Of a stretch of DNA of 64,000 nucleotides, positions 18,881 to 38,046 are shown in pieces. The stretch's first letter is position 1; each line of letters begins with the position of its first letter. Origin of the DNA: Pseudoalteromonas xiamenensis (lineage in GTDB: Bacteria; Pseudomonadota; Gammaproteobacteria; Enterobacterales; Alteromonadaceae). Under the pieces are notes generated by a model. The model did no database searches. It had not been told where the DNA came from and saw nothing but the letters and a program-made list of their open reading frames with translations. The position numbers and the translations under genes were made by a program. Location of the stretch: the NCBI RefSeq assembly GCF_030994125.1, contig NZ_CP099917.1, positions 1,798,001-1,862,000 on the forward strand, given 5' to 3'.

Positions 18881-19045
18881 GCATTCTCCTTAACTAATTC
18901 GTGTTTCTTAAATCTCAATATCGACGTCCATACTACGGACGAGCCTAATCACTGTATAGATGTAAAATGTTTCAGGTTAATTTTTAATAAATAAAAATAT
19001 AACATTTGAGAAACATTTAAAGTCGCGCTTGAAATTAGGACACAT

Positions 19046-20284: not shown

Positions 20285-20333
20285 CTGGGCGGCATCTCTC
20301 TAATCAATTAAGGTATATTTGAAGGTAGGTGCA

Positions 20334-22034: not shown

Positions 22035-22131
22035 TGAACCACCTACCTAAATGAACAAATGAAGGCGTATCGTACACTAACGCCCCTTAAAAAAAACAAC
22101 ATTTAAATTACATTTTTACAATCATCCATAA

Positions 22132-22148
22132 ACAGGATTGTTTCCTGT
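22132..22148. promoter_or_regulatory. Inverted repeat in the lysR-gst divergent region, possible operator
   Basis: ACAGGA-TTGTT-TCCTGT is a perfect 6-base inverted repeat with a 5-base spacer, about 100 bp from the LysR start and 146 bp before the GST start. Its length and place suit a LysR binding site, but there is no experimental or comparative support in this window. Confidence 0.4.
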
Positions 22149-22293
22149 ACGTAAACGGTATGTTTGAAAAGCGACTGTTTATCGTCAATGCCGAACTGAT
22201 TAACCTTGTCACAACGTTGAGCATTAGGAGCTGAACGTTTGTGCTTAGGAGCTAGAAGGCCCTCTAAGCGATATCAATTTAAAAGGATCTATC

Positions 22294-22893: not shown

Positions 22894-22905
22894 CGTTAAC
22901 TCGAA

Positions 22906-22927
22906 GACGGGTGCATTCGCACCTGTC
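22906..22927 (+). other. Intercistronic stem-loop after gst
   Basis: GACGGGTGC-ATTC-GCACCTGTC forms a 9-bp stem with one G-T pair, 12 bp after the GST stop codon. There is no T-run, so it is more likely an mRNA-stability or partial-attenuation element between gst and the DsbA-like gene than a terminator. Confidence 0.4.
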
Positions 22928-22958
22928 CTCATTATTCACTGAATATAGGCCCAATTTT

Positions 22959-23597
22959 ATGAAAAATTTAAAAATTGAGTATGTTCACGACATCGATTGC
23001 TCATGGTGTCCGATCAACTACGCAAATTTAAAAACCGCAATTAAAGCGCTTAACGATGAAGTGAGCGTTGAGATTGAATTTCTTCCTTATGAAGTAAAAC
23101 CAAACTTCAAAGTGGAAGGTGAAAAAATCAGTACGCATCTCATGAAGCTAAATGGCTGGAATGAGCAACAGCATGCGGAATACAGAGAAAGTCTATTAAG
23201 AACCGCGGCTCAAGCTGGCGTCAAAATCGACTTTTCAAAACGCACGCATTACTACAATACCTCGCTTGGTCACCGCTTGGTGCATTTTGCAAGCCTGTCG
23301 AACAAACAAGCTGCAATGAATGAGCTATTGATTGAAGGGTACTTTGAAAAAGGCCTTAACCCAACAAAAGTAGAACAATTGTTGGCGCTAGCAGAGCGTC
23401 TAGATCTAGATCTAAGTGAAGCTAAACAAGCGCTTACTGCGCAGTTTCAAGAACCTGCTTTAGTTGAAAAGTACCAACGTGCAAGACAAATCACGACACG
23501 GGGTGTTCCGGCACTTCGTATTAACGGCAAACAAGTGGTTATCGGTACTCGACCACCTGAATATTTCATCGATTTACTTCGAAATATTGAGACCTAA
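22959..23597 (+). CDS. DsbA family oxidoreductase (FrnE/2-hydroxychromene-isomerase-like)
   Basis: 212-residue cytoplasmic thioredoxin-fold protein with a helical insertion. Seen: no signal peptide, a CSWCP active-site motif in YVHDIDCSWCPINY, a cis-Pro region TTRGVPALRINGKQVV and the typical C-terminal GTRPPEYF. The ATG at 22959 is the natural start; the frame opens 16 codons earlier without conservation. It follows gst by 65 bp, and the two may act together on thiol chemistry. FrnE-type enzymes often accompany polyketide or aromatic biosynthesis. Confidence 0.9.
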   Translation: MKNLKIEYVHDIDCSWCPINYANLKTAIKALNDEVSVEIEFLPYEVKPNFKVEGEKISTHLMKLNGWNEQQHAEYRESLLRTAAQAGVKIDFSKRTHYYNTSLGHRLVHFASLSNKQAAMNELLIEGYFEKGLNPTKVEQLLALAERLDLDLSEAKQALTAQFQEPALVEKYQRARQITTRGVPALRINGKQVVIGTRPPEYFIDLLRNIET

Positions 23598-23631
23598 GTG
23601 CTGAAATAAGCATATAAGGAAATTCGTCACC

Positions 23632-24366
23632 ATGGATATTAAAAAGTTCTCTAGTTTAGCAAAAAGAACAACATCTATCAGCTGTTTCGAAAGCATTCAT
23701 TTATTATGTGAAGAGTTTGCTAAATTAGCAAACATGAAGCAATTTATATTCACCATCGTTGAGAATAACTCATTATACTCATCAAAACTTAGAAATTTTT
23801 CAAACCTTTCTGATGAAGTAAAAAATGATATTAAATCGAGTAGCGAAGGTGAAAGTGCATTTATTAATTGCCAATTAGATAATTACACTCCACAACATTG
23901 GAATGCAACAAGTTCTAAGGGTGATTCTGATGTAAAAATGGTTGCAACGTTCTTCAGTAAATATGGTTTCTCTTGTGGGGTTAATATCCCAATAAAAGCA
24001 AAAAGTGGTGACTTAGCCTTTTTTAACTTGGTATGTGAAACACCTCTGGACGCCAATGAGTTGGATTCAATTCTCGTGTTTGCACATACCTTTTCCTCTT
24101 ATTTGTTCGCAAGTTATGTGCGAATAAAAGAAGAATGCGGCGCAGTAAGTAAACTCTCACCACGTGAAAACGACTGTTTATTTTGGGCATGCGAAGGAAA
24201 AACGGCATGGGAAATCTCCAAAATCATTGGTCTTTCACAACGCACTGTGACCTTTCATTTGATGAATATCATCTCAAAATTGCAAGCAAATAACAGACAG
24301 CACGCTGTCGCTCTCGCGATCATGAAAGGGATCGTGAAACCAACTTTTAGAAACGTACAAGTCTAG
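23632..24366 (+). CDS. LuxR family transcriptional regulator with autoinducer-binding-like domain
   Basis: 244-residue regulator. Seen: a C-terminal quorum-type HTH (LSPRENDCLFWACEGKTAWE, then SQRTVTFHLMNIISKLQANN) that closely follows LuxR/TraR proteins, and an N-terminal domain of about 160 residues of the autoinducer-binding size. The usual Trp/Tyr/Asp-Pro ligand contacts are only partly recognisable (NYTPQHW), so the ligand may not be an N-acyl-homoserine lactone. No luxI-type synthase gene is in the window, making this a LuxR solo. It lies 34 bp after the DsbA-like gene. Confidence 0.88.
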   Translation: MDIKKFSSLAKRTTSISCFESIHLLCEEFAKLANMKQFIFTIVENNSLYSSKLRNFSNLSDEVKNDIKSSSEGESAFINCQLDNYTPQHWNATSSKGDSDVKMVATFFSKYGFSCGVNIPIKAKSGDLAFFNLVCETPLDANELDSILVFAHTFSSYLFASYVRIKEECGAVSKLSPRENDCLFWACEGKTAWEISKIIGLSQRTVTFHLMNIISKLQANNRQHAVALAIMKGIVKPTFRNVQV

Positions 24367-24370
24367 AAGA

Positions 24371-24410
24371 CACAACACAACACAACACAACACAACACAA
24401 CACAACACAT
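24371..24410. repeat. Pentanucleotide tandem repeat (CACAA)7 plus a partial unit
   Basis: Seven perfect copies of CACAA followed by CACAT, lying between the LuxR-type gene stop and the AAGGA ribosome-binding site of the monohaem gene at 24422. Short-unit tandem repeats next to a ribosome-binding site are a classic site of slipped-strand copy-number change, which could alter transcript leader structure or promoter spacing. Confidence 0.95.
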
Positions 24411-24421
24411 AAGGAAATATA

Positions 24422-25570
24422 ATGAGAAGTTTAGTGGGAAGACTCCTATTAATAAATTTGATGTTATTTTCTCAGCTTTCGGCCGCAGAAAACATCGATA
24501 GGCCCAAGCACCGCCCTTGGAACGCAGAAAAACCTTGGTTGATCCCTCAAGATACAACCACAGCGATGAATAACCCTGATTACTACGCATGGCAGCTTTT
24601 TGTCGCATTGAACTGGCCGGCAGACACGTCGCGCTGTAAAGCCGACACCTATGCGCAACTTGGCGAAGCGGGATTAACCGTCTGGGAAAGCTGGCAATCA
24701 CGCGAAGAAACATTTTTAGACGGTGCTGCTGAACCGCAAACGTGGCGACAAGGCTGTAAACAAGGCGGCTTTACCTCTTTGCCTACTGGCGATTACAGTG
24801 TCTTTGCTGACGAAACTATTCGCCTCAATAAAGCCGCTTATGATTACATCCGAGACCACAAACTATACAGCCTTGACGAACAAGAACGTCTCGCTCGCGC
24901 TGGTGTCGAAAACGTTAATTTCCCGCTCGGGTCAATGACGGTAAAGGGCAACTGGGTGCGTATTACGGAAGCCGATAAACCAAATTACCACTGGCAAGAA
25001 ATTGAACGTGATGGTCATGTTGACCTTTATGGTTTATCCGGACTTCACATCGTTTCAAAAGACAGTCCAACGTGGTTTTGGGCAACCTTTGAGCACGTAG
25101 ACAACGAACGCCGCTGGGCGCAAACATACCCTACCGCCTTTGTCGGTTGGTTAACACAATCTGTTGACCATGCAGCTTGTCCATCCGATAACTTGGCATG
25201 CAACGAGATCCCTAGTGGCTTTGGACTTGAAGATACGCGCTGGGCAAACTACCGATTACGTGGCACACAAGTCGATTGGTCGACAAATCGAGGGGTTCCA
25301 ACTGTACTGGCCAACTCACAACTTGAAGCGTTTATGGACTTGGAAACCAGTTCTTGTATTACTTGCCATGCGTTGGCAGTAAAGGGTGAAGAAGGCGCTC
25401 CAAAACCGATTGGCTTTTTACTAGAGGAAGTCAATATTCACGGCAAAAAGCTAGGCTACGTTGGTCCACCAAATCCACAACTCTTTTTTGATGGTAATGG
25501 CGAGGCTATTCCTTACCTAGGATTGGATTACGTTTGGGCGCTGCGTAAAGCGAAGCGTGAGCAACCGTAA
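24422..25570 (+). CDS. Secreted monohaem (CxxCH) protein of unknown function
   Basis: 382-residue exported protein. Seen: a signal peptide (LLLINLMLFSQLSAAEN) and a single haem c attachment motif CITCH near residue 314 in SSCITCHALAV. A large N-terminal domain rich in Trp and Tyr precedes it (YYAWQLFVALNWPAD, PTWFWATFEHVDNERRW). Four further cysteines could form disulphides. The domain resembles uncharacterised cytochrome-c-like proteins; I do not recognise a named enzyme. Its start follows a tandem repeat that may vary in length. It is last in the plus-strand run after the LuxR-type gene. Confidence 0.75.
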   Translation: MRSLVGRLLLINLMLFSQLSAAENIDRPKHRPWNAEKPWLIPQDTTTAMNNPDYYAWQLFVALNWPADTSRCKADTYAQLGEAGLTVWESWQSREETFLDGAAEPQTWRQGCKQGGFTSLPTGDYSVFADETIRLNKAAYDYIRDHKLYSLDEQERLARAGVENVNFPLGSMTVKGNWVRITEADKPNYHWQEIERDGHVDLYGLSGLHIVSKDSPTWFWATFEHVDNERRWAQTYPTAFVGWLTQSVDHAACPSDNLACNEIPSGFGLEDTRWANYRLRGTQVDWSTNRGVPTVLANSQLEAFMDLETSSCITCHALAVKGEEGAPKPIGFLLEEVNIHGKKLGYVGPPNPQLFFDGNGEAIPYLGLDYVWALRKAKREQP

Positions 25571-26051
25571 TTAGCGCTCAATAGAAGGTTGTTGGTTCGT
25601 TGTAAAAACGTGTGGTACCAACCCCTTAAATGCTCGCTCAGTTTAATTGTACAGACATTCGATTTCCGCAGCCGCTCACTGCAAATTGCACGCTTCATCA
25701 CCACACCCGTTTAATTCAAAACCACCATACACTTTCCGCCTCAACCTCTGACCCCATATTTCAAAAGACTCAGGGATAAACATCGAGTCCACTGAAGACA
25801 GAAATAAACGCAACACCTTAATCAGTTCAACGGTGATCTCAACAAGAACGACTATTGGCATACCCTTTAACCGTTAAGCTTTAATAGTGGCTTTAGCCGT
25901 TCTCACGTACAACATGCGGTTTCGGAACACGCGAGAATAAAAGGCAAGTAACCCAATATTTGTAGGAGAATAATGATGTATCGATTCGAGTCTGGCGAGT
26001 GTGATCGTGCTCATGAATAGAGCTCACTGAGCCCCGAGACCTGCACGCAAA
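25571..26051. other. Intergenic region with one possible mini-ORF
   Basis: About 480 bp between the monohaem gene and the terminator of the biosynthetic operon. It has no convincing gene. A 61-codon minus-strand open frame (25676-25861) shows no domain or ribosome-binding site. At 25973-26020 a 15-codon ORF (MMYRFESGECDRAHE) follows a good GTAGGAGAAT ribosome-binding site. It could be a leaderless remnant or a tiny gene. Confidence 0.4.
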
Positions 26052-26088
26052 CAAAAACGGCTGGTTACTTCAACGTACCCAGCCGTGC
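26052..26088 (-). terminator. Rho-independent terminator of the biosynthetic/transport operon
   Basis: On the minus strand the hairpin CGGCTGGGTAC...GTAACCAGCCG, with a loop of about 6 bases, is followed by TTTTTGTTTG. It sits 30 bp after the TauE/SafE-type gene and ends the long minus-strand run starting near 36868. Confidence 0.85.
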
Positions 26089-26116
26089 GATGTGAAAATA
26101 GTGAACGTGAATTAGG

Positions 26117-26887
26117 CTAGAAGTTAAACACCAATTTCCCAACGTTAGCAGAGAGCATGGCAATAAGCACAAAACTCAGTATTTTCTTCACAAATCCTGC
26201 GCCTTTAGCAACTGCCGCGTGTCCGCCAATCCAACCACCGATAGAGTTGGCGATTAACATAGGGATGGCTATCGGCCACACTACTTTGCCCGCAAACACA
26301 AACACGAGTGTCGCAGCAACATTGGTGGTCAAGTTAATCGGTTTGGCAATGGCGGTAGACACCAACAAGTCGTAACGCAGGCTTTTGTTGGTCGCCAACA
26401 CCATAAAAGAGCCCGTACCTGGTCCTGCTAATCCGTCGTACACGCCAATACCCGTTAAGAGTGACACAAACTTAGGCTTACTCTGCGGCTGGTTTTCAAC
26501 GTGGTGATCCGTTTTTACTAGTCGCGTAAACACGAGCGCAATCACGATGCTGGTCAGAATCAAGCCTTCTAAAAACCAATCAGGAGCTAAAATGGCTAAC
26601 TTGCTACCTAAAATCGATCCCAAGAAACAAGGTATGATAGCCAATGCGACATAACGCCATTTGATTAACTTGTTGAGCGAATATTTAAGTACTACAAAGC
26701 TGGTGCCTACCATCGAAACCACTTTGTTCGTCGCTAGTGATGAAATAGGACTCACACCACATAACAGTAATGCTGGCACTTGCAATACTCCGCCGCCGCC
26801 AGCGATGGCATCGATATAGCCAGCGCACAGCGCGACAAAGACAAGTGTGACTACCACCCAAATTTCATATCCAAAGAATAAATCCAT
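26117..26887 (-). CDS. TauE/SafE (TSUP) family anion transporter
   Basis: 256-residue inner-membrane protein with about eight predicted helices. Seen: the N-terminal GYIDAIAGGGGVLQVPALLL repeat motif and a second half-repeat GVYDGLAGPGTGSFMVL, typical of the TSUP/TauE-SafE family exporting sulphite, sulphoacetate or other small organic anions. It lies 12 bp after the BenE gene and is the last gene before the terminator. It may move sulphite or thiosulphate linked to the rhodanese upstream, or an organic acid; this is inference. Confidence 0.88.
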   Translation of the reverse strand: MDLFFGYEIWVVVTLVFVALCAGYIDAIAGGGGVLQVPALLLCGVSPISSLATNKVVSMVGTSFVVLKYSLNKLIKWRYVALAIIPCFLGSILGSKLAILAPDWFLEGLILTSIVIALVFTRLVKTDHHVENQPQSKPKFVSLLTGIGVYDGLAGPGTGSFMVLATNKSLRYDLLVSTAIAKPINLTTNVAATLVFVFAGKVVWPIAIPMLIANSIGGWIGGHAAVAKGAGFVKKILSFVLIAMLSANVGKLVFNF

Positions 26888-26899
26888 TTGAGTTATTAC

Positions 26900-28153
26900 C
26901 TATTTCGAGACTTCGAATTGAGCCGCTTTACTCTTTTTTGCCCATTTTGAGCTAAAGAACGTCACAAAACGAGGGTGATTCACGAGCATCGCAAACACGC
27001 CTGCAATTATACCCCAAAATGCAGAGCCTATTCCCATAAACGAAATACCTGAGGCCGTCACTAAGAAGGTGATCATCGCCGCCTGACGATTTGACTCATC
27101 CTGTACGGCTGAATTCAACGCATTACCTATTGTGCCAAGTAGAGCGATGCCGGCAATTGCAAGGATGAGAGCTTCAGGAAAAATCGTAAACGCTTGGACT
27201 ACTGCCGCGCCAAAAATCCCCGTTAAAATATAGAAAAAACCCGCTGCAATAGCCGCGACATAACGCTTGCTTGGATCTGGATGCGCTTCTTTGCCGACAC
27301 AAATTGCTGAAGTAATCGTTGCGAGGTTGATGGCGTAAGCACCGAACACGGACAGCACAGTTGTACTCACACCGGTCCATGCGATAAGCGGAGAAACGGG
27401 CGTATCTTTGTAATCAGAGGCACGCAATACGGAAAGACCTGGTAGATTTTGCGATGCCATCGTTACGATGAACAGCGGGATCGTAATACCGATAAAAGCC
27501 TGCATACTAAACTCAGGCATAATGAATTCAGGTTTCGTTATCACAAAATCAAGGCTTTGAGCCTGAATGATTCCTTGGTTGTAGGCAATTAAACAGCCCA
27601 CTAATAAAGCTAAGATCACCGAGTAGCGTGCCGAAAACTTCTGACATACGATAAACACTAACAACATCGCCAGTACCAGCACTAAGTTTGATTGCATCGC
27701 CGAGAATGCATTAATACCGAAGTCCAGCAATACGCCCGACAACATCGCAGCAGCAAGCGAGAGTGGGATTTTCTTCATCACGCGCTCAAACAGCCCGCTA
27801 AATCCAGCGATACTGATCAACACACCAGTCAGCACAAAGGCACCTATTGCTTCGTTCAGGCTAGCACCAGATGCGCCCGTCACCAGCATCGCCGCACCGG
27901 ATGTCGACCAAGCAGTGGTAATGGGGGTTTTATAACGGATGGAGAGGGCAATACCTGAAATTCCCATCCCTAGGCCTAATGCCAAAATCCACGAACTGAT
28001 TTGCTGTGGGTTAGCGCCAAGTGCCTGAGCGGCTTGAAAAACAATAACAACTGAACTGGTGAAACCCACCAATACCGTCACGAATCCAGCATTAATTGCT
28101 GAAAGAGACATATCCTTCGCTATCTCTTTAACTACTTTAAATAAATTAGCCAT
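26900..28153 (-). CDS. BenE family benzoate/H+ symporter-like transporter
   Basis: 417-residue membrane protein with about 12 predicted helices. Seen: the BenE pattern with GFVTVLVGFTSSVVIVFQAA at the start, TPITTAWSTSGAAML, NLPGLSVLRA and a PDPSKRYVAA loop. Characterised members import aromatic acids such as benzoate. Its place after the tautomerase gene (173 bp away) suggests transport of a substrate or product of the operon, though it may have its own promoter in the AT-rich gap. Confidence 0.9.
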   Translation of the reverse strand: MANLFKVVKEIAKDMSLSAINAGFVTVLVGFTSSVVIVFQAAQALGANPQQISSWILALGLGMGISGIALSIRYKTPITTAWSTSGAAMLVTGASGASLNEAIGAFVLTGVLISIAGFSGLFERVMKKIPLSLAAAMLSGVLLDFGINAFSAMQSNLVLVLAMLLVFIVCQKFSARYSVILALLVGCLIAYNQGIIQAQSLDFVITKPEFIMPEFSMQAFIGITIPLFIVTMASQNLPGLSVLRASDYKDTPVSPLIAWTGVSTTVLSVFGAYAINLATITSAICVGKEAHPDPSKRYVAAIAAGFFYILTGIFGAAVVQAFTIFPEALILAIAGIALLGTIGNALNSAVQDESNRQAAMITFLVTASGISFMGIGSAFWGIIAGVFAMLVNHPRFVTFFSSKWAKKSKAAQFEVSK

Positions 28154-28326
28154 AATATTTTGTCACTATCCTTTTCACAATATCAACAGCACAATAACAT
28201 GTTTTATAGTGCCAGATAATATTTATGCAAATAATAATTAGCAATAAATAATAGGCACTCATATTAATATAACTTAATAAAGAGCACCTATACTCGACGC
28301 TAATAAATATATTTACTAAATATGGC
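28154..28326 (-). other. AT-rich spacer inside the operon
   Basis: 173 bp between the tautomerase gene and the BenE gene, with many A/T runs and no gene. It is long enough to hold a secondary promoter for the two transporter genes. I see no clear terminator in it. Confidence 0.4.
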
Positions 28327-28524
28327 TTAAACAGGCTTCTGAACTTGTTTACCTCCAGAACCCCAGTTATCTAATGCCACCTCGTCAATCACAACGGTGG
28401 TTAGGCTTTCTGGTTTTCCGAGTACATCTTTTAGTACTTTTGCAACGCCTTCAATTAGCTCTGCTTTTTGCTCTCTAGTGATACCTGTTGGCGTTGGTGT
28501 CACTTTAATATTTACGTACGGCAT
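28327..28524 (-). CDS. 4-oxalocrotonate tautomerase family protein
   Basis: 65-residue small tautomerase. Seen: it starts MPYVNIKVTPT, so Pro becomes the N-terminal catalytic base after Met removal, and TREQKAELIEGVAKVLKDVL follows the standard beta-alpha-beta fold. The ATG at 28524 is chosen because the catalytic Pro must be residue 2; the frame opens 11 codons earlier. It lies 46 bp after the rhodanese gene in the biosynthetic operon. It probably isomerises a keto-enol intermediate, but its substrate is unknown. Confidence 0.9.
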   Translation of the reverse strand: MPYVNIKVTPTPTGITREQKAELIEGVAKVLKDVLGKPESLTTVVIDEVALDNWGSGGKQVQKPV

Positions 28525-28570
28525 TATATTTATCCTTTGTCTTACTCGCTGCCTCATTGACAGCCTATGG

Positions 28571-28948
28571 TTAAGAAGCAGCTCGTGCTGGTGACGGTTC
28601 TAACACCGTTGGGTAACCGTGTTCACTCCACCAGCTCAATCCACCAATGAGCTCTTTCACATTCAACCCTAATTTCGCCATTTTGAGTGCGCCATTGGTT
28701 GCCGCGTTACAGCCCAAGCCGTCACAATACGTGACGTATAAGGTGTTTTGATTAAAGTCAGCGAGGTTTTCCGCCGTGATGTTTTTGTGCGGATAACTCA
28801 CCGCGCCATCAATGTGTTTTTTGTTGAAAGACGGAGTTTGTCTCACATCAAGTACCACAACGTCTTGACCCGCTTTCATCGCTTCGTGTAAATCCCACGC
28901 ATCCATTTCATACGCTAATTTACTTTCATAAAATTTGATTTGATCCAC
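28571..28948 (-). CDS. Rhodanese-like domain protein
   Basis: 125-residue single-domain protein. Seen: VVVLDVRQTPSFNKKHIDGA and a predicted active Cys in TYCDGLGCNAA, with PHKNI between. The active loop CDGLGC differs from classic thiosulphate sulphurtransferase CRKGVT, so its acceptor may not be cyanide. It lies 11 bp after the PhyH-like dioxygenase gene, so it is translationally close to it. Sulphur transfer or redox support for the biosynthetic pathway is inference. Confidence 0.88.
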   Translation of the reverse strand: MDQIKFYESKLAYEMDAWDLHEAMKAGQDVVVLDVRQTPSFNKKHIDGAVSYPHKNITAENLADFNQNTLYVTYCDGLGCNAATNGALKMAKLGLNVKELIGGLSWWSEHGYPTVLEPSPARAAS

Positions 28949-28959
28949 GATGTTAATCC

Positions 28960-29940
28960 TTACGCGACTTCTTCAAGTTTGCTTGGCTTCACATTATCGT
29001 AAAAATTCGCGTCTGCGCGGATGAAACGGCGCTCGCGATCTGCATCAAAATAGGCACTTTCAACAATCAGTTCGTTGTCTTCTTTACAAATTTCTAAGTG
29101 GAACTTTGTTGGACCTTCGTAACCATAGTAATTACGTGGAATTTCAATCATTTCTGCACGCTCTTTGTCATAACGAGAATCTGCTGAAATAAAACGTAAT
29201 GAGAACGCATCACGTGCTTCAAGTGGACCTGCTTCTAAAGGTGCACTGCGGTGTAAAACGTACTTGTCGAATAGAATGACATCACCAAGCTCAAAATCAT
29301 CTTCGATTGAGAAGTATTCAAGCAAACGAGCAATACCACCTGAGTTTAATGGGTCGTCACGAAGTGCTACGTAGTCTTCAAATTCAATACCACCTGACTT
29401 GATGTGTTCATCCATACATCTGAATACAGCTGGGTCAATGAAGTCATACATGAATTCACCCGAGATGATGTCACGCGGCACGTAGCACATACCACCACGT
29501 TGCTTCTTACTATCGATTGCATGTAATGGTGCCCAAAGCGTCGTACCGTTGTCTTCTGCACGGTTAAAACCAAAGCTTTGTGATTCGATGTGCCATGTAA
29601 AGCCTTTGTTTACTTTACCTGGTTCACTGCGTTTTAAGCTAAAACCCACGCCTTGCGTGTAGAACAAGTCTTCTTGGCACAGTGACAACATCACGTTTTG
29701 GAACATTTCTTCTTCAAGTAATTCAAAAATCGTTTCGTCACCGTTACAAAGATCATAACGCAACTTATCAAACCCTTTTTGGTAGTGGTCTGTTGGCGTT
29801 TCAAACTCATCGTTTACACGTGCTTTCAAAAACTCAATCATCTCTAGCGAGAAGAATTGCTTTAATACAACGAATCCTTGACGTTGGTATTTCTCGACAT
29901 GATCCGCTGTTAGTTGGAAATCTGGGTTTAACTTTCTCAT
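28960..29940 (-). CDS. Phytanoyl-CoA dioxygenase (PhyH) family Fe(II)/2-oxoglutarate oxygenase
   Basis: 326-residue likely hydroxylase. Seen: an N-terminal YQRQGFVVLKQFFSLEMIEF typical of PhyH proteins, a metal motif WHIESQSF (HxE instead of the more common HxD), and a distal His and 2-oxoglutarate Arg region YVLHRSAPLEAG. The HxE variant may alter chemistry. It lies 48 bp after the NRPS gene in the same operon and probably oxidises an amino-acid-derived intermediate. Confidence 0.85.
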   Translation of the reverse strand: MRKLNPDFQLTADHVEKYQRQGFVVLKQFFSLEMIEFLKARVNDEFETPTDHYQKGFDKLRYDLCNGDETIFELLEEEMFQNVMLSLCQEDLFYTQGVGFSLKRSEPGKVNKGFTWHIESQSFGFNRAEDNGTTLWAPLHAIDSKKQRGGMCYVPRDIISGEFMYDFIDPAVFRCMDEHIKSGGIEFEDYVALRDDPLNSGGIARLLEYFSIEDDFELGDVILFDKYVLHRSAPLEAGPLEARDAFSLRFISADSRYDKERAEMIEIPRNYYGYEGPTKFHLEICKEDNELIVESAYFDADRERRFIRADANFYDNVKPSKLEEVA

Positions 29941-29988
29941 TTTACTAGTCCTTTTCTTTGTCAGAATTAAATAAACATTGCTACATTT

Positions 29989-32900
29989 TTACGCTGAAGC
30001 TTTCAGCAAAACTGATGGATAATCCGGATTTTTGAAAATCCGTTTTCTCGTAAATTGGCCCAAGTGCAGTAGATCTGGGTCTGATTTCGAAATCGCCTTT
30101 TGTTCAATCAAATGGCAGATGAATTTTTCAATCCAAGCCTCTGTTGGCTCCTCGAAACGACAGCCCAGTTTCTCCAACTTTCTGAGCGTGACGCTGTGGT
30201 CGTAAATCACGTTACGTGGGCTTCTCGAACTCCATAATTTGCCAAGTGCAAAATCGGAATCCACCGTACTGTCGAGCCACCCAAACACTTCACCGAAGGT
30301 TTTGTTTGTCGAGTGGTTTAACGTAAAGCCGTTATTTGCTAACGCTTTATAGAGCGCCTTCATAGAGAAGTAGTGAGGTGTATCCACATGGAAAACCCCC
30401 GGGGCTTGTTCGTGATCTAGAGACAACTTCACAACGAATGCGGCAACCACATCCACAGGGCTTAAGTTCACTTCTTCATCGATGCTTGTCGGCAACACCC
30501 CAACTTTCGCCGTGGCATTCAAGAATTGAATGAGGCGATTCGCTTTGGAATTGCGCTGGAACTTACCTGTAATGGAGTTACCCGATACGTTACCTGTTCG
30601 GTAAATATACGCACGGTAGCCCTCAACGATGTGGCTATTCACCAACTCTTCGGCTTGATACTTGGTTTTCTCGTAACCGTTTTGGAAATCTTGACCGATG
30701 TTCAGTGAGCTTTCTCTAAACTTCACCATGTCACGATTCACACCACATACGGCCAACGTCGACATGTAGTGCAGGTCTTTGACTTTGCCCACTTTTGAGA
30801 AATTGATGATTTGTTTTAGAGGAACAATATTTGACTCATAAAACTCTTGCGTTGAGCCAATTAAGCGTGTGTCTGCAGCTAGGTGGTAAATCGCATCAAC
30901 GACGTTTTTCAGCCCTTCATACTGTTCGTCACGAAGTCCAAATTGCGTGCGTGTTAAATCGCTGTCTAACACCGCAATCCGACTTGCGTAGGTTTGCCAA
31001 TCTTCATCACTGAAGTACCAACACCAATTGTCATATAGGCGTTCTGCGGCTGATTTATCCGCTGAAGAACGAACCAAGCAGACAATCTCAGCCGACGTGG
31101 TCTCTAACAGTTCTTTTAAACAATGCACGCCGATAAACCCGCTTGCGCCTGTGAGCAGAACCGTACCGTAGTGACGCTGGTGCGTTGACTCCGACGCTGA
31201 AATAAAGCCCTCAGGGCAATAATGGATGGCACCCGTGCTGGTTCCTTCCGTTAATACCGGAGCCATTACCGCCGATTGGTCAACCAAAAGACTGTTTAAA
31301 CGATCGCGATAGCGCTCAAGTAGCGCAACGATTTGTGCTTTTTGGGTTTCATCGCAAACCGACGGATAGGATATATCGACGACGTATTGCCCATGCATTT
31401 TTTGAATAGACACTTTGATGTCGTGGAAACGAATATTATCTCGGCCACGACATGGCCCAATGTCCATCGTGCTTGGCGTTAAGGCTAAGCGGTCGTCATG
31501 TGGGAAGTCCGTGTCACCCAAGTAATTGAAACAAATTGGGGCGTGGTATAGTGTTTCAACGTCCTCGATGTGTTTTACTTGCCAACTTTTTTCGACACCT
31601 AAATTGACTGCACTATCAAACTCTTTTTTGGTGTTCAACAGTGTTTGGTCAATCACGTAAGCATCCACATCCACTTCAAACGGATACGTTGAAGTATGCC
31701 ACCCAACGACGCGTGAGATATCCACTTCAGGGTCAAACGACACACGACCATGGCTTTCAACATCAATGCATACGCGGTTTGCGTTGTTCAACTTACCGTA
31801 TTCATGTGCCAATGTACCCAATAAAAGTGTGTGTAGCGGGACGTTCTTAGCGGCAGATGCAGCCTCCAATTCAATCGAATGCTCTTTGGAGTACGCGAAC
31901 CAGAACGTATGCGCGTTACCTTCCGTGTGCGGCATTTTTGACGCGAATACCGAAGGCTTAGGATCTGTGCTAACCGAGGACGACGTGTCTTTTGCAATTG
32001 ACGAATCAAGGTGGTCAACCCAATCCCAGAAGCTGCAACGCACCGGGTTCGACACAATGTCGATTCCGTCAATTAAATCACCATAAAGCTGTGACAACTC
32101 ACTGGTGATGATGCGCCATGAAATCACATCTACACTGATGTGGTGCGCCACGAGCAACAAGTAACTTTCAGCGTCGGTTGTTTCAAAAAGGTGCGCTTTA
32201 AACACTTCGCCAGACGCAAGGTTAATTGCCTCTTGTACCGCTGTTGATTGCGTTTTAATGAGTGCGCGATGATCTTCATTCGCAGGCAAGGTAGAGCGAC
32301 TTAACACACTATCGATTGACGCGTTAAGCGGCTTGGCAAGGTAATGGCCTTCATGACGCACAAATGAGGTTCGGAGCAATTCGTGCTGTTCACACAAAAT
32401 ACCCATCGCCTGCTTCAACACGTCAAAATCAACGCGCTGGTCGATGCGGAACATCAACGCTTGGTTATACAGATCAGGTGATGCAAGCTCTTCTTTAAAG
32501 AAGAAATCTTGCGCGGCTGCAAACGTAGTGACTTCCGTACGCTCTACAACTTTACCGGCTTTATCCGCTGATTCGCGGTTTTTCACCACACTTTTGACGA
32601 TTCCATCGATAGTCGGTGTGTTGTTAAAATCGAATGCTGACAGCGACAGTCCTTTATATTGCAAATTCGCGACTAGTTGCACCGAATCAAGTGAGTTACC
32701 ACCTAATTCAAAGAAACTGTCATGGATGGTGTAGTCGGTTTTCGCAATGTATTTGTGGAATATCGGCTGCACGCCGAGGTAGACCTCTAACTCGACACCG
32801 TCGTAATCTTGGTCAATTGACGGTGCATCTGAGCTAGTCGCTTGATTTGCCAATTCTTCCGTAAGTTTCTCGGTCAAGATAGCTTTAATGGCTTTAACGT

Positions 32901-34368
32901 CTGTTTTACCATTCTCATTACGCGGGAAGTCTTCCAACACGTAAATACGCTGTGGCACCATATAACCCGGCATAACGTTTTCAAGGCGAGCCTTCATGTC
33001 AGCACAGGGTTCACTCGGTGGCGTAATTGCGGCAACTAACCATTTCTTTTGGTTCAATTCAAAATACGCAACCGATGCGCCAAAGATAGGTAAGTTGTCA
33101 CGCATCGTATTTTCAATGCTTTCCAACTCGACTCGATAGCCATTGATCTTCACTTGGCGGTCTAATCGACCAATAAAGCTGGTAATACCATCCTCATCGA
33201 TGTCTACATAATCACCCGTTTTGTAGCAACGCACAGCACGGCCATCATTGAGTTCAATGGTAATAAAGCGATTCGCGTTTTCTTCTGGCAAATTGCGGTA
33301 GCCTTTTGATACAGAAGGCCCTGCAATCAACAATTCCCCTTTTACCGAGCTTGAGCGGTAATGCCCTTGCTCATCTAAAATGTAAAATGTCGTTTCGCCA
33401 AACGGTGCACCAATTGGGATCACGTCACCTGGAATGAGTGCCACGTGTTCAAGGCTTTCTAAACGTAATGCAGCTACTCCAACGGTGGTTTCAGTCGGTC
33501 CATAATGGTTAAACACGTTGCTTACTGTGTTTGAACTCAATACCTTTTCAACGACAGTTTTGAGTAATGGTTCGCCACCAAAAACAAGGTATTCTAGGTG
33601 TGGGTATGGGTTACCACTCAATTGATGAGCATCTGAAACGGCAGACCAATGAGATGGAGTGATCTTCACAAATTCAATGCGATTCGTAACAAAGTACTCG
33701 AATAACTTGATCGGGTCTTTACGTGTGTATTGATCGATAAGGTGCAAGCTACCCGCTTTATAGAGCGACAAGAACAATGAGGTGTTTCCAAGATCCGCCG
33801 CTAAGGTGCTTAAGTGACCATAGTTAAGCCCCTCAGGCACCTGTGTTAGTGAGGCAATAGACTGAGTGTAGTGCTCAATATTTCCGTGACTCACTTTAAC
33901 GCCTTTTGGCTTGCCCGTTGAACCCGAGGTATACAACACATACGCGACGTCTTCTTGCGTTAATGCTGGTAAAGTAATGTCGTCGGAGGTTGCTCGTGTT
34001 AGTTCTTCAAAAATAAAACATGGAACAACGTCAGAGAATATCGCCGCTTCTTTCGCATCCGCTAAGACGAAATCAGGTTCAATGTTTTTTGTGTGAATCA
34101 CGCATTCAATGCGCTTCTCTGTCATTTCTACGATGGTGTAGGCAGCGCCTGATAGCATGACAGCAAACATGCTTATAACGGTGTTGATGCCACGATCTGA
34201 ATAAATCGCAATAACATCACCACGTGATACGCCTAAACGTACAAGATTTTTGGCCATCATCGTCGCTTGAGCCGCCAATTGAGCGTATGACACGCTTTTT
34301 CCTTGAGCGACTACAGCATTATCATGTTCAAATTTTAATGCGTTGTTTAATAAGGCTTGTACTATCAT
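29989..34368 (-). CDS. Non-ribosomal peptide synthetase, A-T-E/C-like-reductase module
   Basis: Single-module synthetase of about 1460 residues. Seen, numbered from an upstream ATG at 34401: adenylation domain at about 30-510 with TSGSTGKPKG (158), ADLGNTSLF with the alpha-amino-binding Asp, YGPTET (300), TGDY and the catalytic Lys in NENGKTDVK; carrier protein with GGNSLDS (Ser 570); a condensation-superfamily domain from about 628 with HHISVDVISW, DVESHGR and FNYLGD, closest in pattern to epimerisation domains; and a C-terminal NAD(P)-binding thioester reductase with TGASGFIG. The reductase should release an aldehyde or alcohol. The ATG at 34368 has a GGGGAG box 9 bases upstream. Substrate is not assignable. 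Confidence 0.88.
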   Translation of the reverse strand: MIVQALLNNALKFEHDNAVVAQGKSVSYAQLAAQATMMAKNLVRLGVSRGDVIAIYSDRGINTVISMFAVMLSGAAYTIVEMTEKRIECVIHTKNIEPDFVLADAKEAAIFSDVVPCFIFEELTRATSDDITLPALTQEDVAYVLYTSGSTGKPKGVKVSHGNIEHYTQSIASLTQVPEGLNYGHLSTLAADLGNTSLFLSLYKAGSLHLIDQYTRKDPIKLFEYFVTNRIEFVKITPSHWSAVSDAHQLSGNPYPHLEYLVFGGEPLLKTVVEKVLSSNTVSNVFNHYGPTETTVGVAALRLESLEHVALIPGDVIPIGAPFGETTFYILDEQGHYRSSSVKGELLIAGPSVSKGYRNLPEENANRFITIELNDGRAVRCYKTGDYVDIDEDGITSFIGRLDRQVKINGYRVELESIENTMRDNLPIFGASVAYFELNQKKWLVAAITPPSEPCADMKARLENVMPGYMVPQRIYVLEDFPRNENGKTDVKAIKAILTEKLTEELANQATSSDAPSIDQDYDGVELEVYLGVQPIFHKYIAKTDYTIHDSFFELGGNSLDSVQLVANLQYKGLSLSAFDFNNTPTIDGIVKSVVKNRESADKAGKVVERTEVTTFAAAQDFFFKEELASPDLYNQALMFRIDQRVDFDVLKQAMGILCEQHELLRTSFVRHEGHYLAKPLNASIDSVLSRSTLPANEDHRALIKTQSTAVQEAINLASGEVFKAHLFETTDAESYLLLVAHHISVDVISWRIITSELSQLYGDLIDGIDIVSNPVRCSFWDWVDHLDSSIAKDTSSSVSTDPKPSVFASKMPHTEGNAHTFWFAYSKEHSIELEAASAAKNVPLHTLLLGTLAHEYGKLNNANRVCIDVESHGRVSFDPEVDISRVVGWHTSTYPFEVDVDAYVIDQTLLNTKKEFDSAVNLGVEKSWQVKHIEDVETLYHAPICFNYLGDTDFPHDDRLALTPSTMDIGPCRGRDNIRFHDIKVSIQKMHGQYVVDISYPSVCDETQKAQIVALLERYRDRLNSLLVDQSAVMAPVLTEGTSTGAIHYCPEGFISASESTHQRHYGTVLLTGASGFIGVHCLKELLETTSAEIVCLVRSSADKSAAERLYDNWCWYFSDEDWQTYASRIAVLDSDLTRTQFGLRDEQYEGLKNVVDAIYHLAADTRLIGSTQEFYESNIVPLKQIINFSKVGKVKDLHYMSTLAVCGVNRDMVKFRESSLNIGQDFQNGYEKTKYQAEELVNSHIVEGYRAYIYRTGNVSGNSITGKFQRNSKANRLIQFLNATAKVGVLPTSIDEEVNLSPVDVVAAFVVKLSLDHEQAPGVFHVDTPHYFSMKALYKALANNGFTLNHSTNKTFGEVFGWLDSTVDSDFALGKLWSSRSPRNVIYDHSVTLRKLEKLGCRFEEPTEAWIEKFICHLIEQKAISKSDPDLLHLGQFTRKRIFKNPDYPSVLLKASA

Positions 34369-34527
34369 TTTGCTTAACTCCCCTGTGCAGAGAACATTCA
34401 TACCTCGGTATTAAGCACGTCGTCTGGTTTTAGCTTCCCTGACAAGAGGTATGTCATTTCATGGATTTAAAGTGAGCAAGCGGTCACGAGAGTGAAACTC
34501 TCGCCACGCCTGCCTGCACTTTGGAAA

Positions 34528-35508
34528 TTAAACGTTATGACCGTGAGCAATGAACGCTTGCTTTGTCTTCTCGTGGTTCAATAAACCCATTTTTTCAACA
34601 CACTCAACAAGTTGAAGAGTTGTCTTTTCAATGTATGCATTCATTTTGCCAAGATAAACTTCTGCCGTGTCATCCAGAATTTGCTGTGTTTCTGCTTCAG
34701 TGAAACCACTGGCTAACAACACTTTGCGGTCAAAATCTCGTTCTTCATCGCCTTTCAAATATTCGTCGATGTACGCTGGTAAGAACTGACCGATTTCGTC
34801 TTTAACTACGTCAGGTAATTTCACCCAGTAGTTTGTCGTTGCCGTCATGAAGAAACTCGCGTGGCGGCCTTCGTCTGCTACGTGGTCTGTCATTACTTGG
34901 TTAAAGGTTTCCGTTGCGCTCTTTTCTTCCCCAATCGCCAGCAAATCTTTTGTCAACGTATGCTCCGCAAGCGTGACTGACAATAGTTGGAAATGGTGAT
35001 GAATTTCTGGGCTCAATACCTGGTATGCATGACGTACAGCATCTAAGTTGCCGTTTGTTTGCGGTACTTCAAGTGGTTGAATTGCATTTTGTTCTTTCAT
35101 TTGCATGATGAAATCCAATGCAACGTAAGCGTGGTAACCTTCGTCGATAACGATAGCTAACGCTTCACGTTTAGTGACATCGCTGAAGCCTTCAATCACG
35201 TTATTTACGATGTTTAATGAACAATCGATAACAAAACGCGTTTCCAACAAACCAATTTCATACATGTAGCGATACGCTGATTGCGCCAAAATATAGGAAA
35301 TTGTCTCTTTACCTTTGTTGATCACCATTGGGTGTGACACTAATGGCTGACGTGATGGCGGGAAAATGTACTCATCACTGTTTAAGCTAGGTACGATGAT
35401 ACGATCAGTTGTTCTAACCGTTGCTTTTCGGTACCAATGCTTAATGTTATTTGCTTCTTTCTTCACGTTTTCTACATTTGGTAGAATTTTGGTTGCTAAA
35501 TTGCTCAT
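34528..35508 (-). CDS. AurF-like diiron N-oxygenase
   Basis: 326-residue non-haem diiron oxygenase. Seen: carboxylate and His ligands in EIGLLETRFV, IDEGYHAYVALDF, LAEHTLTKDL and VADEGRHASFF, the paired E-x6-xxH pattern of AurF/CmlI-type enzymes that oxidise amines to hydroxylamine or nitro groups. It is second in the operon, between the aminotransferase and the NRPS. AurF-type enzymes beside reductase-terminated NRPSs are known from fragin (ham) and mgo clusters, where they contribute to N-N bond (diazeniumdiolate) formation. The equivalent role here is inference. Confidence 0.85.
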   Translation of the reverse strand: MSNLATKILPNVENVKKEANNIKHWYRKATVRTTDRIIVPSLNSDEYIFPPSRQPLVSHPMVINKGKETISYILAQSAYRYMYEIGLLETRFVIDCSLNIVNNVIEGFSDVTKREALAIVIDEGYHAYVALDFIMQMKEQNAIQPLEVPQTNGNLDAVRHAYQVLSPEIHHHFQLLSVTLAEHTLTKDLLAIGEEKSATETFNQVMTDHVADEGRHASFFMTATTNYWVKLPDVVKDEIGQFLPAYIDEYLKGDEERDFDRKVLLASGFTEAETQQILDDTAEVYLGKMNAYIEKTTLQLVECVEKMGLLNHEKTKQAFIAHGHNV

Positions 35509-35584
35509 GGTTTAGATCCTTTAAAATTGGTATTCAAAATTGAGTCGGTGCGCTTTGCTACAGTAAGCGCACGCGGTAATTCAT

Positions 35585-36868
35585 TTACTTAATTTGTTCT
35601 GCGATCGATACCGCTAACGCTTCAGCAAAACGGATGATGTCGTCGTTTGTATGTGCGTCATTCAAGAAAATGGGCTCTTCCAAACTTGGTGCCATTAGGA
35701 AACCTTTTTCACGCATGGCTAAATGCACGTTTTTATAGATTTCATATTCTTGCTGTTTCACATCGGAATAGTTCTGCATGTCGGCACCTGAACGTCTAAA
35801 TGCGATGCCAGACAGTGCGCCAAAACGAGTGAAGTGGAATGGGATGTCGTATTTTTCGAAATTCTGTTTGATTTCTTTTTCAAGCAACGCGCCTTTTTCA
35901 TCCATTGCTTCATAGAAACCAGGTTTTGCCATCAAATCTAGGGCAGCATTACCTGCAGCCATAGTGATTGGGTTACCAGCGAACGTGCCTGATTGGAACA
36001 CTTTATTGCCGATTTCGACTAACTTCATGAACTTCTCTTTACCACCGTACGCGCCAACTGGAGCACCACCACCGATGATTTTGCCAAACGTCGTTAAATC
36101 GGGATCGACACCAAGTAACGCAGACACACCACCGAAGCGGAAACGGAAGCCTGTAACCACTTCGTCGAAGATGAACAGTGAACCGTAATCTGTACACAAC
36201 TGTCTGATGTCTTGGTGGAAGTGAGCATGTGGTTTAACAAAGCCCATATTTGTTGCAAATGGCTCAACAATAACCGCTGCAATTTCATGACCACGTTCTT
36301 CGAAAATTTGACGCAGTTGCTCAGAGTTATTGTATTCACACATGATCACATTGTTTTCAGCTACGCCGTTTGTCGTTCCTTTCACTGCCACAGCAACATT
36401 ACCACCTGGTTGCGCTAACAATGCATCCGCATGACCATGGTAGGAGCCTACAAAGCGTACGAAATATTTACGGTCAGTGTACGCACGAGCAATGCGAAGT
36501 GCAGTCATAACCGCTTCACTACCACTGACAACAAAACGGAGCTTGTCGATAGCTGGTGTGCTTTCCACAATCTTTCGTGCTAATTCTTTCTCTATCTCTG
36601 TAGAGAGCCCCACAACTAGACCTTTGTCTAGTTGAGCAGCGACTGCTTGAGAGATTTCTTCACGTGAATGGCCGAGGAAAATTGCCCCAAAACCACTTAG
36701 AAAGTCCGTGTACTCACGACCGTCTACGTCAATGATTTTGGTGCCTTTCGCTGATTCCAAAATGATTGGATCACCGCCTACAAGCGAGAAAGTTCTCATC
36801 GGTGAACTTACACCATTTGGAATGTACTTGTTTGCTTCGTTAAAGATAATTTCTGATTTACGGGTCAT
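35585..36868 (-). CDS. Class III PLP-dependent aminotransferase (glutamate-1-semialdehyde aminotransferase-like)
   Basis: 427-residue PLP enzyme, first gene of the biosynthetic operon. Seen: PNGVSSPMR at the start, SGSEAVMTALRIAR, SYHGHADALL, FDEVVTGFRF with the PLP Asp, and the PLP Lys in TFGKIIGGGAPVGAYGG. The pattern is that of the HemL group but diverges from true HemL at several conserved positions, so I read it as a pathway-specific aminotransferase or aminomutase rather than the tetrapyrrole enzyme. HamG-type aminotransferases occur in fragin-like clusters. It is divergent from the porin, with a lux-box-like site between. Confidence 0.85.
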   Translation of the reverse strand: MTRKSEIIFNEANKYIPNGVSSPMRTFSLVGGDPIILESAKGTKIIDVDGREYTDFLSGFGAIFLGHSREEISQAVAAQLDKGLVVGLSTEIEKELARKIVESTPAIDKLRFVVSGSEAVMTALRIARAYTDRKYFVRFVGSYHGHADALLAQPGGNVAVAVKGTTNGVAENNVIMCEYNNSEQLRQIFEERGHEIAAVIVEPFATNMGFVKPHAHFHQDIRQLCTDYGSLFIFDEVVTGFRFRFGGVSALLGVDPDLTTFGKIIGGGAPVGAYGGKEKFMKLVEIGNKVFQSGTFAGNPITMAAGNAALDLMAKPGFYEAMDEKGALLEKEIKQNFEKYDIPFHFTRFGALSGIAFRRSGADMQNYSDVKQQEYEIYKNVHLAMREKGFLMAPSLEEPIFLNDAHTNDDIIRFAEALAVSIAEQIK

Positions 36869-37077
36869 TTTATGGCCTACATATAATTAAAGTATTCGTT
36901 ACTCACTCAGCGCATTCACCATTCGGTTCGTTCAATAAGTGTGCGTGTTTATGAGGCCAATTATTCTTGCATTGCTCGAAATCAACAACTGCAACATGTT
37001 ACAGTAGATTAACTTATCGCCTTAAAGTTTAATAAGTTGTAAATTAAAACAAGTTGTAAAACCGATACTTACCCGCT
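36869..37077. promoter_or_regulatory. Divergent promoter region between biosynthetic operon and porin
   Basis: About 210 bp. It must carry the minus-strand promoter of the aminotransferase-first operon and the plus-strand promoter of the porin gene. AT-rich sequence (TTTAATAAGTTGTAAATTAA) lies near the porin start. A near-palindromic site is centred at about 36996. Confidence 0.6.
36987..37006. promoter_or_regulatory. lux-box-like palindrome, possible operator of the biosynthetic operon
   Basis: AACTGCAACATGTTACAGTA is a 20-base imperfect palindrome. It matches the CTGnAnnATnnTnCAG core of LuxR-type binding sites and the CT-N12-AG rule, with one mismatched pair. It lies about 120 bp before the aminotransferase start. 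The LuxR-type regulator at 23632 is a plausible but untested partner. Confidence 0.45.
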
Positions 37078-38046
37078 ATGAAATTAATCACACACACCTG
37101 CACTACAGCACTCTTAATCGTCACTACTCCGCTACTTGCGGCATCACCGTCTTTAACTTCTTATGGCATTGTCGCGCTGGCAGGCGAGGACGTGCAGTAC
37201 ACTGATGAGTCTTTATCCGATGACAGCAGTGCTTTTAGAAGCAAAGCTTCACGCATTGGTATAAAAGGTGAAGAAACGTTTTCAGACAATGAACACGCCT
37301 TCTATTTATTGGAATATGGTGTGAACTTAAAGACACAAAAAAAGGACGACTCGTTTTTCTTACGTGAAGCCGTTGTTGGACTTAAAAATCAATATGGTAG
37401 TCTTAAACTCGGCTTCAGTAATACGCCGTTTAAGCTTTCTCAAGGTCGTGTTGATGCATTTAACGATGTGGTTGATTTACGCACCTTTTTACCGGGTGAA
37501 TACGTAGAAAACATGGTGGTTGTTGAATCCGCATCTCTTCACGGTGTCAGCGCAGCGGTTGCCTATGTCCTAGTTGATAAAGACGGGGATAAGCGTGAAC
37601 GCCGAGGAACCTCGAGCAGTCTTAAATACCAACACGACAACCTCTATGTTGCACTGGCTTATGAACAAAACATCACGCAACAAGACTTGCTCAGGTTATC
37701 GGCAACCTATCAGTATGAACAATGGCAAATCGGGGTGTTAACTGAACAGAGCGTCGCGACGGAAAACAATCTCGACAAGCAATCCGGCCAACTGGTCAGT
37801 GTACTCTATCATTTGGACAAATTAACGTTCAAAGCGCAGTGGATAAATGCTCGCTTTACGACGGGCATCAAATCCTTCTACGGGATTAAGGGTGATAACA
37901 ATGCTAGCGTCACGTTGGGTGTAGATTACCACCTCAGCCAACATAGCACGCTGATGTTCTATGGTGCTCATGGTGAGGCAAAGTCCAATCAACATGGTAA
38001 ACAGGAAGCGGATGTCATTGGCCTTGGCATGCGAGTCACATTTTAG
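37078..38046 (+). CDS. Gram-negative general porin
   Basis: 322-residue outer-membrane protein. Seen: a signal peptide (cleavage after PLLAA), an N-terminal SLTSYGIVALAGE strand, the porin motif SRIGIKGEE, an L3-like FLPGEYVENMV loop, and a last strand ending VIGLGMRVTF with the C-terminal Phe. The size fits a 16-strand OmpC-like trimeric porin. It is divergent from the biosynthetic operon and may share regulation with it. Confidence 0.9.
   Translation: MKLITHTCTTALLIVTTPLLAASPSLTSYGIVALAGEDVQYTDESLSDDSSAFRSKASRIGIKGEETFSDNEHAFYLLEYGVNLKTQKKDDSFFLREAVVGLKNQYGSLKLGFSNTPFKLSQGRVDAFNDVVDLRTFLPGEYVENMVVVESASLHGVSAAVAYVLVDKDGDKRERRGTSSSLKYQHDNLYVALAYEQNITQQDLLRLSATYQYEQWQIGVLTEQSVATENNLDKQSGQLVSVLYHLDKLTFKAQWINARFTTGIKSFYGIKGDNNASVTLGVDYHLSQHSTLMFYGAHGEAKSNQHGKQEADVIGLGMRVTF

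Follow-up and report, generated by a model that had tools for sequence, protein, structure and literature searches.

The window analysed here is a stretch of 64,000 nucleotides from Pseudoalteromonas xiamenensis (contig NZ_CP099917.1, positions 1,798,001 to 1,862,000; the genome has two contigs totalling 4.6 Mb). An original prediction, made from the letters alone, had singled out eight minus-strand genes as an operon for a non-ribosomal peptide synthetase (NRPS) and an AurF-type N-oxygenase, running from an aminotransferase to a TauE/SafE-type transporter and closed by a terminator. All eight genes are present as annotated, in open reading frame (ORF) calls and in Pfam, and their families are as stated, including the PhyH, rhodanese, tautomerase, BenE and TSUP proteins that had been picked out as unusual partners. 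The operon is, however, only half of a larger conserved cluster of 17 genes, extending over approximately 18560–38046 from a ferredoxin gene to a porin gene. The second half had been missed, and with it a paralogue of the glutamate racemase MurI, which is the strongest clue to the function of the cluster. In the list below, identities are to the equivalent proteins of a second Pseudoalteromonas genome (G070) and, where given, of three Pseudomonas-type clusters.

18560–18880, minus strand: [2Fe-2S] ferredoxin (Pfam Fer2), 77% identical to the protein at the equivalent place in G070; possible electron donor to the AurF-type enzyme
19046–20284, plus strand: ferredoxin reductase (Pyr_redox_2 and Reductase_C; best NCBIfam match HcaD-like, below cut-off), 54% in G070
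20319–21146, plus strand: glutamate racemase (MurI) paralogue (TIGR00067, 193 bits), proposed self-protection enzyme from its motifs and tree
21138–22034, minus strand: LysR-type regulator (Pfam), 74% in G070
22294–22893, plus strand: glutathione S-transferase (GST; Pfam GST_N/GST_C), 71% in G070 and 46–48% in the three Pseudomonas-type clusters
22911–23597, plus strand (probable start near 22959): DsbA-like thiol oxidoreductase with a CSWC motif (Pfam DSBA), 58% in G070
23632–24366, plus strand: LuxR-type regulator (Pfam GerE; Autoind_bind 20.9 bits, below the cut-off of 23), 50% in G070
24422–25570, plus strand: protein with one c-type haem motif (CITCH) in the window and G070 copies, 70% in G070
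26057–26086, minus strand: intrinsic terminator at the operon end, an inverted repeat followed by a T-run
26117–26887, minus strand: TSUP (TauE/SafE-type) transporter (Pfam PF01925), 67% in G070 and 46–47% in the three Pseudomonas-type clusters
26900–28153, minus strand: BenE-type transporter (PF03594; NCBIfam benE above cut-off), 81% in G070 and 59–64% in the three Pseudomonas-type clusters
28327–28524, minus strand: 4-oxalocrotonate-tautomerase-like protein with proline after the initial methionine (PF01361; TIGR00013 above cut-off), 77% in G070
28571–28948, minus strand: single-domain rhodanese (Pfam PF00581), 66% in G070
28960–29940, minus strand: PhyH-type Fe/2-oxoglutarate enzyme of the CurA/BtnX halogenase family with HxE in place of HxG (H117, E119, H230; PF05721, PDB matches, motif count and tree)
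29989–34401, minus strand: NRPS module of adenylation (A), thiolation (T), epimerisation (E) and reductase (R) domains, predicted to activate aspartate (Pfam; specificity code in seven of seven homologues; E and R regions compared with PDB)
34528–35508, minus strand: AurF-type di-iron N-oxygenase (Pfam PF11583; seven ligand positions invariant in 38 sequences)
35585–36868, minus strand: class III aminotransferase (AT3), a diverged paralogue of glutamate-1-semialdehyde (GSA) aminomutase (PF00202; PRK00062 passed, hemL equivalog failed; PDB and alignment)
37078–38046, plus strand: porin, divergent from AT3 (Pfam Porin_4), with a 42% identical porin at the equivalent G070 position

Computed from the coordinates, the gaps between the operon genes from AT3 to TSUP are 76, 126, 48, 11, 46, 173 and 12 bases. 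Just past the TSUP gene lies a 12-base inverted repeat (26057–26086, 92% complementary), then TTTTTGTTT; the 78-base stretch around it has a folding z of -2.26, and 5 of 200 shuffles were as good. A generic terminator scan of the window did not list this terminator. Promoter-like sites occur within the 173-base gap before BenE, and the region as a whole has 16 such sites against 25.8 in shuffles, fewer than expected. The gap between the AurF and NRPS genes (34402–34527) forms a long hairpin (z -2.86, with 3 of 200 shuffles folding equally well) and is also strongly folded in G070; it is possibly a site of processing or attenuation.

G070 carries the identical 17-gene set in identical order (ferredoxin, ferredoxin reductase, MurI paralogue, LysR, GST, DsbA-like, LuxR, haem-motif protein, the eight-gene operon and porin) at a different genomic site. 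Identities between the two clusters range from 42% (porin) to 86% (AurF and PhyH), and the outer neighbours differ, those in G070 being on the side of groEL and efp (read by eye). Among named AurF homologues the closest, at 86% identity, is a ‘Pseudoalteromonas diiron oxygenase’. At E≤1e-30, 4 of 108 Pseudoalteromonas genomes have an AurF match, two above 80% identity (the window’s own genome and G070) and two at about 30%. Among 398 Pseudomonas genomes, seven matched at 1e-60 and two of them at 55% identity (G133 and G662, the latter probably Pseudomonas benzenivorans), and two of 398 Burkholderiaceae genomes gave a 52% match. A phylum-wide search of 398 genomes returned the window’s own enzyme as the sole match above 43%, and a plasmid search returned eight records, all below 60%.

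Gene order extends the comparison to other genera. AT3, AurF, NRPS, PhyH, rhodanese, tautomerase and TSUP, then GST and BenE, are common to P. tumuqii (L007, L048), a Pseudomonadales metagenome-assembled genome (MAG; L006) and P. benzenivorans (L049). In L048 and L049 BenE is followed by a second racemase gene; that of the MAG adjoins a BenE tail on another contig. Trinickia (L008) and a genome that is probably Burkholderia plantarii (G1258; L051) have the AT3-AurF-NRPS trio only, accompanied by a LysR gene and, as judged by eye, a gene resembling those of membrane transporters. In a large protein search, AurF and PhyH homologues had 16 contigs of exactly equal size in common, equal size being taken as the same contig; the comparison covered 117 of 117 AurF rows, 111 of 113 PhyH rows and the first 51 of 120 racemase rows, with contigs of at least 5 kb kept (69 for AurF and 68 for PhyH). 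Since gene content and order are conserved in other genera, the grouping is more than chance. Because it is rare, mobile and conserved across distant genera, and combines a single-module NRPS with an oxygenase and an aminotransferase, we conclude with high confidence that this is a small-molecule biosynthetic gene cluster. It is apparently undescribed: we found no publication on it in the open-licence literature, judged by titles and abstract openings, and an account elsewhere is possible.

In Pfam the NRPS consists of A and T domains, a single domain of the condensation family and a reductase. HHxxxDxxSW, ESHGR and FNYLG/FNFLG-type motifs, which we take as typical of epimerisation domains, occur in the condensation-family domain. 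Among the PDB matches of this domain are gramicidin synthetase 1 and tyrocidine synthetase A, both presumably E domains, together with bacitracin synthetase 3 and PvdL. The reductase region, in which YxxxK is kept, matches the reductases MxaA and AusA. No separate peptide-forming condensation domain was found among the 17 cluster proteins, so that the module would process one amino acid only. The specificity code of the A domain reads DLTKVGHVGK in the window and DLTK[VI]GH[VI]GK in seven of seven homologues. Taking DLTKVGHIGK to be an aspartate code, we predict that the A domain activates aspartate.

All seven metal ligands of the AurF-type enzyme, including the extra histidine (E89, E123, H126, E182, H209, E213 and H216), are invariant in 38 of 38 sequences, following the ligand list for the family in the available part of PMC12154687. 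In a tree of 35 rows the window enzyme falls within a 22-row group (100/99) that includes seven obafluorin-type rows, one of the contigs concerned (L015) being named as an oba-like cluster in the available part of PMC5490192. A 9-row group with Burkholderia cenocepacia and Pseudomonas rows, which we ourselves labelled ham/mgo-like, lies outside it, and some long branches were flagged. Two further Pseudoalteromonas genomes (G018 and G079; loci L002 and L027) hold a different AurF-type gene of about 30% identity belonging to this ham/mgo-like group, with an NRPS-like ORF adjoining it in L002. A PDB search with the single sequence gave no match; with the A1 profile, AurF itself was recovered at 2.4e-11 and 5hyg at 0.0076. 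The enzyme is a predicted N-oxygenase, and our best guess for its product is an N-hydroxy, oxime or nitro compound.

AT3 passed the PRK00062 subfamily model (460 against a cut-off of 398) and failed the hemL equivalog TIGR00713 (429.7 against 527.3 bits). Its 15 best PDB matches are all named GSA aminomutase or aminotransferase. SP[ML]R is kept in seven of seven cluster copies, where the HemL of the same genome has SPVR; the arginine of this SPxR motif presumably binds the substrate carboxylate. AT3 shares 37–38% identity with the best-matching other copy of its genome, which is likely HemL, and on sequence grounds it is a diverged GSA aminomutase paralogue. A role as a resistant copy of HemL is unlikely, because AT3 stays with AurF and the NRPS as a single diverged family, with 52–85% identity among clusters against 36–40% to own HemL.

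The closest solved relatives of the PhyH-type enzyme are BtnX, a ‘biotin halogenase’ (PDB 9pv1, E 2e-75), to which it aligns over nearly its full length, and the CurA halogenase (3nnf, 5.6e-24); the function of BtnX is taken from its PDB name, and we found no publication on it in the open-licence literature. Both have HVG where the window enzyme has HIE. Within the family, 67 of 114 rows have HxE, 42 have HxG and 5 another motif, and in a tree built from 107 of them a single branch (100/100) sets the 65 HxE proteins apart. We reject a halogenase function on the HxE motif, in which the HxG (or HxA) of a halide site is absent. Because CurA and BtnX are HxG, we favour HxE as the derived state; the enzyme might then be a former halogenase that has regained a metal carboxylate ligand (Glu) and become an oxygenase. 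One homologue (P0190), a 253-residue metagenome protein covering 60% of the query, bears a tautomerase Pfam tag, perhaps through a fusion of cluster neighbours or a frame artefact.

The window MurI passes TIGR00067 (193.2 against a cut-off of 146.65), falls below the cut-offs of the equivalog models PRK00865.1-1 and -3, and has both catalytic cysteines in CNT and CTH motifs. It is the only MurI match detected in its genome. Across the genus, 103 of 108 genomes have a MurI match. In G070, P. tumuqii, P. benzenivorans and the MAG the cluster copy stands alongside another MurI, the MAG racemase on C65 being the cluster type and the fragment on C12 the ordinary gene; in these four a second copy of the supposed target thus lies inside the cluster, as in self-resistance by target duplication, whereas the window genome has the cluster copy alone. 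In a tree of 31 rows the two Pseudoalteromonas cluster copies group together (99/94) and lie apart from 19 ordinary copies of that genus; the three cluster copies of Pseudomonas type form a separate group (100/100), with two ordinary copies (L093 and L094) placed on the Pseudomonas side. Two separate groups of cluster copies imply at least two recruitments of MurI. The window gene was also considered as a relocated ordinary gene, which its grouping with the G070 cluster copy argues against.

Residues beside the catalytic cysteines distinguish the cluster copies. At the first cysteine, CNTI is found in four of five cluster copies and CNTA in 30 of 30 non-cluster rows read; at the second, both Pseudoalteromonas cluster copies have ACTH, and the non-cluster rows read GCTH (29 of 30) or GSTH (1 of 30). 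All five cluster copies have CNTI or ACTH. In these counts one non-cluster row duplicates another, the MAG fragment lacks the first site and one further row was unread at the second. The GSTH motif, with serine in place of the second catalytic cysteine, is seen in a Trinickia racemase (L059, 1384–2238) whose genome has the AT3-AurF-NRPS trio, with the racemase elsewhere. We also ranked 7,999 racemases by a profile built from the five cluster copies, so that the best 120 are a sample biased towards likeness to them. CNTI occurs in 27 of these 120 (26 of the first 27 rows and P0261) and ACTH in 5; the last 93 rows have CNTI once and ACTH four times. Three ACTH rows are 70–72% like the window MurI; of these three, one is named Shewanella putrefaciens and a second lies on a contig equal in size (21181) to that of a PhyH homologue. 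A search of 394 genomes of the order, in which the membership of Shewanella is unstated, gave no other genome with a racemase match at E≤1e-60. Repeated recruitment, the substitutions next to the catalytic cysteines and, in one host, the displacement of the ordinary gene lead us to regard the racemase as a spared or resistant copy of the target, with low to moderate confidence. We found no publication on a cluster-encoded glutamate racemase inhibitor in the open-licence literature.

Taken together, we tentatively favour a cluster for an aspartate-derived, N-oxygenated amino-acid antimetabolite with MurI as a self-protecting copy of its target; the chemical steps, structure, export and target are what we infer from the gene set. 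That the product is derived from aspartate and N-oxygenated is predicted with moderate confidence. The A domain would load L-aspartate onto the T domain, the E domain would epimerise the aspartyl residue, and the AurF-type enzyme would oxidise its amine, giving an N-hydroxy, oxime or nitro function, perhaps with electrons from the cluster ferredoxin and ferredoxin reductase (for the latter, only 4 of the 36 genomes searched, its own included, gave a match at E≤1e-40). The R domain may then free the thioester as an aldehyde of the aspartate-1-semialdehyde type. If aspartate is released reductively at C1, this aldehyde would be the homologue of GSA with one carbon fewer, and for that reason we propose that AT3 aminates it or shifts its amine. 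PhyH could hydroxylate a carbon and the tautomerase isomerise an intermediate, and ring closure between an N-hydroxyl group and the free carboxylate of the side chain could yield an isoxazol(idin)-5-one. BenE, TSUP and the porin may transport the product. GST, the DsbA-like protein and the rhodanese suggest a thiol-reactive product or intermediate, which they would handle, and the MurI paralogue would protect the producer as a copy of the target, glutamate racemase. Signalling control of the cluster is possible because of the LuxR-type regulator with its weak autoinducer-binding match. A fuller version, in which the product is a natural antibiotic against glutamate racemase, an N-oxygenated D-glutamate mimic made from aspartate, with MurI resistant and PhyH an oxygenase of halogenase descent, seems to us unlikely as a whole.

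Several observations weigh against this reading. The Burkholderiales versions have no racemase beside the trio, which means that synthesis does not require MurI and that a MurI target would leave these versions unexplained. A racemase of Shewanella putrefaciens (P0265), 72% like that of the window, also has ACTH, its genomic context being unseen; for these two reasons the resistant-target interpretation is held back. Five of the 108 Pseudoalteromonas genomes lack a MurI match altogether, and loss of the ordinary gene is thus not unique to the window genome. The G070 cluster MurI is a long branch in the tree, and the PhyH tree is midpoint-rooted. Finally, the obafluorin AurF-like enzyme, the nearest characterised relative, is proposed in the available part of PMC5490192 to oxidise an arylamine to an aryl nitro group; the amine oxidised here might therefore be aromatic, which calls for caution over an aliphatic substrate.

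This last point bears on a reading in which AurF acts on an aromatic amine to give a nitroaryl product, as in obafluorin, and BenE, the tautomerase, GST and the HcaD-like reductase handle aromatic acids. Among relatives with a known product, the obafluorin enzyme comes nearest (41–44% identity in the oba-like loci L009–L015), and the BenE and HcaD labels fit. However, these labels are family names only, the 17 genes include none for p-aminophenylalanine or aminobenzoate synthesis, and the A-domain code is aspartate-like throughout. Obafluorin is a nitroaryl beta-lactone made with a long NRPS elsewhere, and by BLAST only AurF and a generic NRPS match L009–L015, AT3, PhyH and the other window genes being absent there. 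We consider this reading improbable. The original prediction had named a diazeniumdiolate among the possible products and compared the genes with the fragin and mgo clusters; the likeness stands within what is now one predicted operon. As in ham (fragin/valdiazen) and mgo/pvf, an AurF-type enzyme lies beside an A-T-R type NRPS for one amino acid, and in ham an aminotransferase (HamG) is proposed to aminate the released aldehyde (available parts of PMC5878181 and PMC11659414). A new branch of this diazeniumdiolate or pyrazine N-oxide family, with the N-N bond formed by unrelated enzymes, is nonetheless very improbable. The diazeniumdiolate group of fragin is ascribed to HamA, HamC and HamE in the available part of PMC5878181, and a Pfam scan of the 17 cluster proteins, in which the haem-motif protein matched nothing, found no haem-oxygenase or polyketide-cyclase family (the rest of the genome was unsearched). 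The window cluster lacks partners of the HamA, HamB, HamE and HamF types, inserts an E domain, has an aspartate- rather than valine-type code and a GSA-aminomutase-like aminotransferase, adds PhyH, rhodanese, tautomerase, GST, BenE, TSUP and MurI, and has its AurF outside the ham/mgo-like group. An N-hydroxy or nitro compound, also named in the original prediction, remains the best guess for the product class, and the expectation of a new product agrees with the lack of grouping with any known-product family in anything searched. A further parallel is lipothrenin, where the AurF-like LitN gives an N-hydroxylated D-amino-acid residue; unlike the window cluster, LitN belongs to a fatty-diacid threonine pathway and is proposed to act on an amide, and no A-T-E-R module is seen in the available part of PMC10616846.

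The remaining alternatives concern the racemase. With the same aspartate and N-oxygenation logic, MurI could be a supply or housekeeping enzyme for D-glutamate or D-aspartate, and the product could have a different target or role. Being the only copy detected in the window genome it may simply do the ordinary job, and the Burkholderiales versions manage without it. Yet the other hosts, G070 and the Pseudomonas genomes, hold another MurI too, the cluster encodes neither a condensation domain nor a ligase that could take up a D-amino acid, an E domain is already part of the module, and substitutions beside the catalytic cysteines are unexpected for a mere supply gene. This alternative is possible, though we think it rather unlikely. 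Some glutamate racemases bind gyrase, and MurI might accordingly shelter DNA gyrase from a product that attacks it rather than the cell wall. Beyond that link nothing favours the idea; the substitutions sit at the racemase active site, the cluster has no gyrase-type resistance gene, and we give it very little credence. Aspartate-derived N-oxygenation with MurI as the self-protecting target copy remains the reading that we tentatively prefer.

Two observations lie apart from these questions. The haem-motif protein at 24422–25570 has no Pfam or NCBIfam match and no counterpart in the Pseudomonas-type clusters. Elsewhere in the window (3438–7525, minus strand) is a tandem family of related ORFs with a near-identical XRE-like N-terminal part of about 72 residues and diverged membrane segments after it: two full-length copies (5628–6533 and 6641–7525; 170 identical positions, ungapped) and three pieces (3438–4055, 4200–4508 and 4673–5233).

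If MurI is the target, the cluster would offer a route to a natural inhibitor of glutamate racemase. Whatever the target, it would represent the logic of fragin biosynthesis applied to aspartate, with an aminomutase recruited to a shorter substrate. It also provides a testable case of HxE arising in, or being retained by, a family of HxG halogenases. An uncharacterised oxygenase group is widespread, its homologues bearing the names of Pseudoalteromonas, Pseudomonas, Acinetobacter, Rubrivivax, Aquabacterium, Polyangium and Sorangium, and the cluster ties this group to one predicted amino-acid substrate and a candidate cell-wall target.

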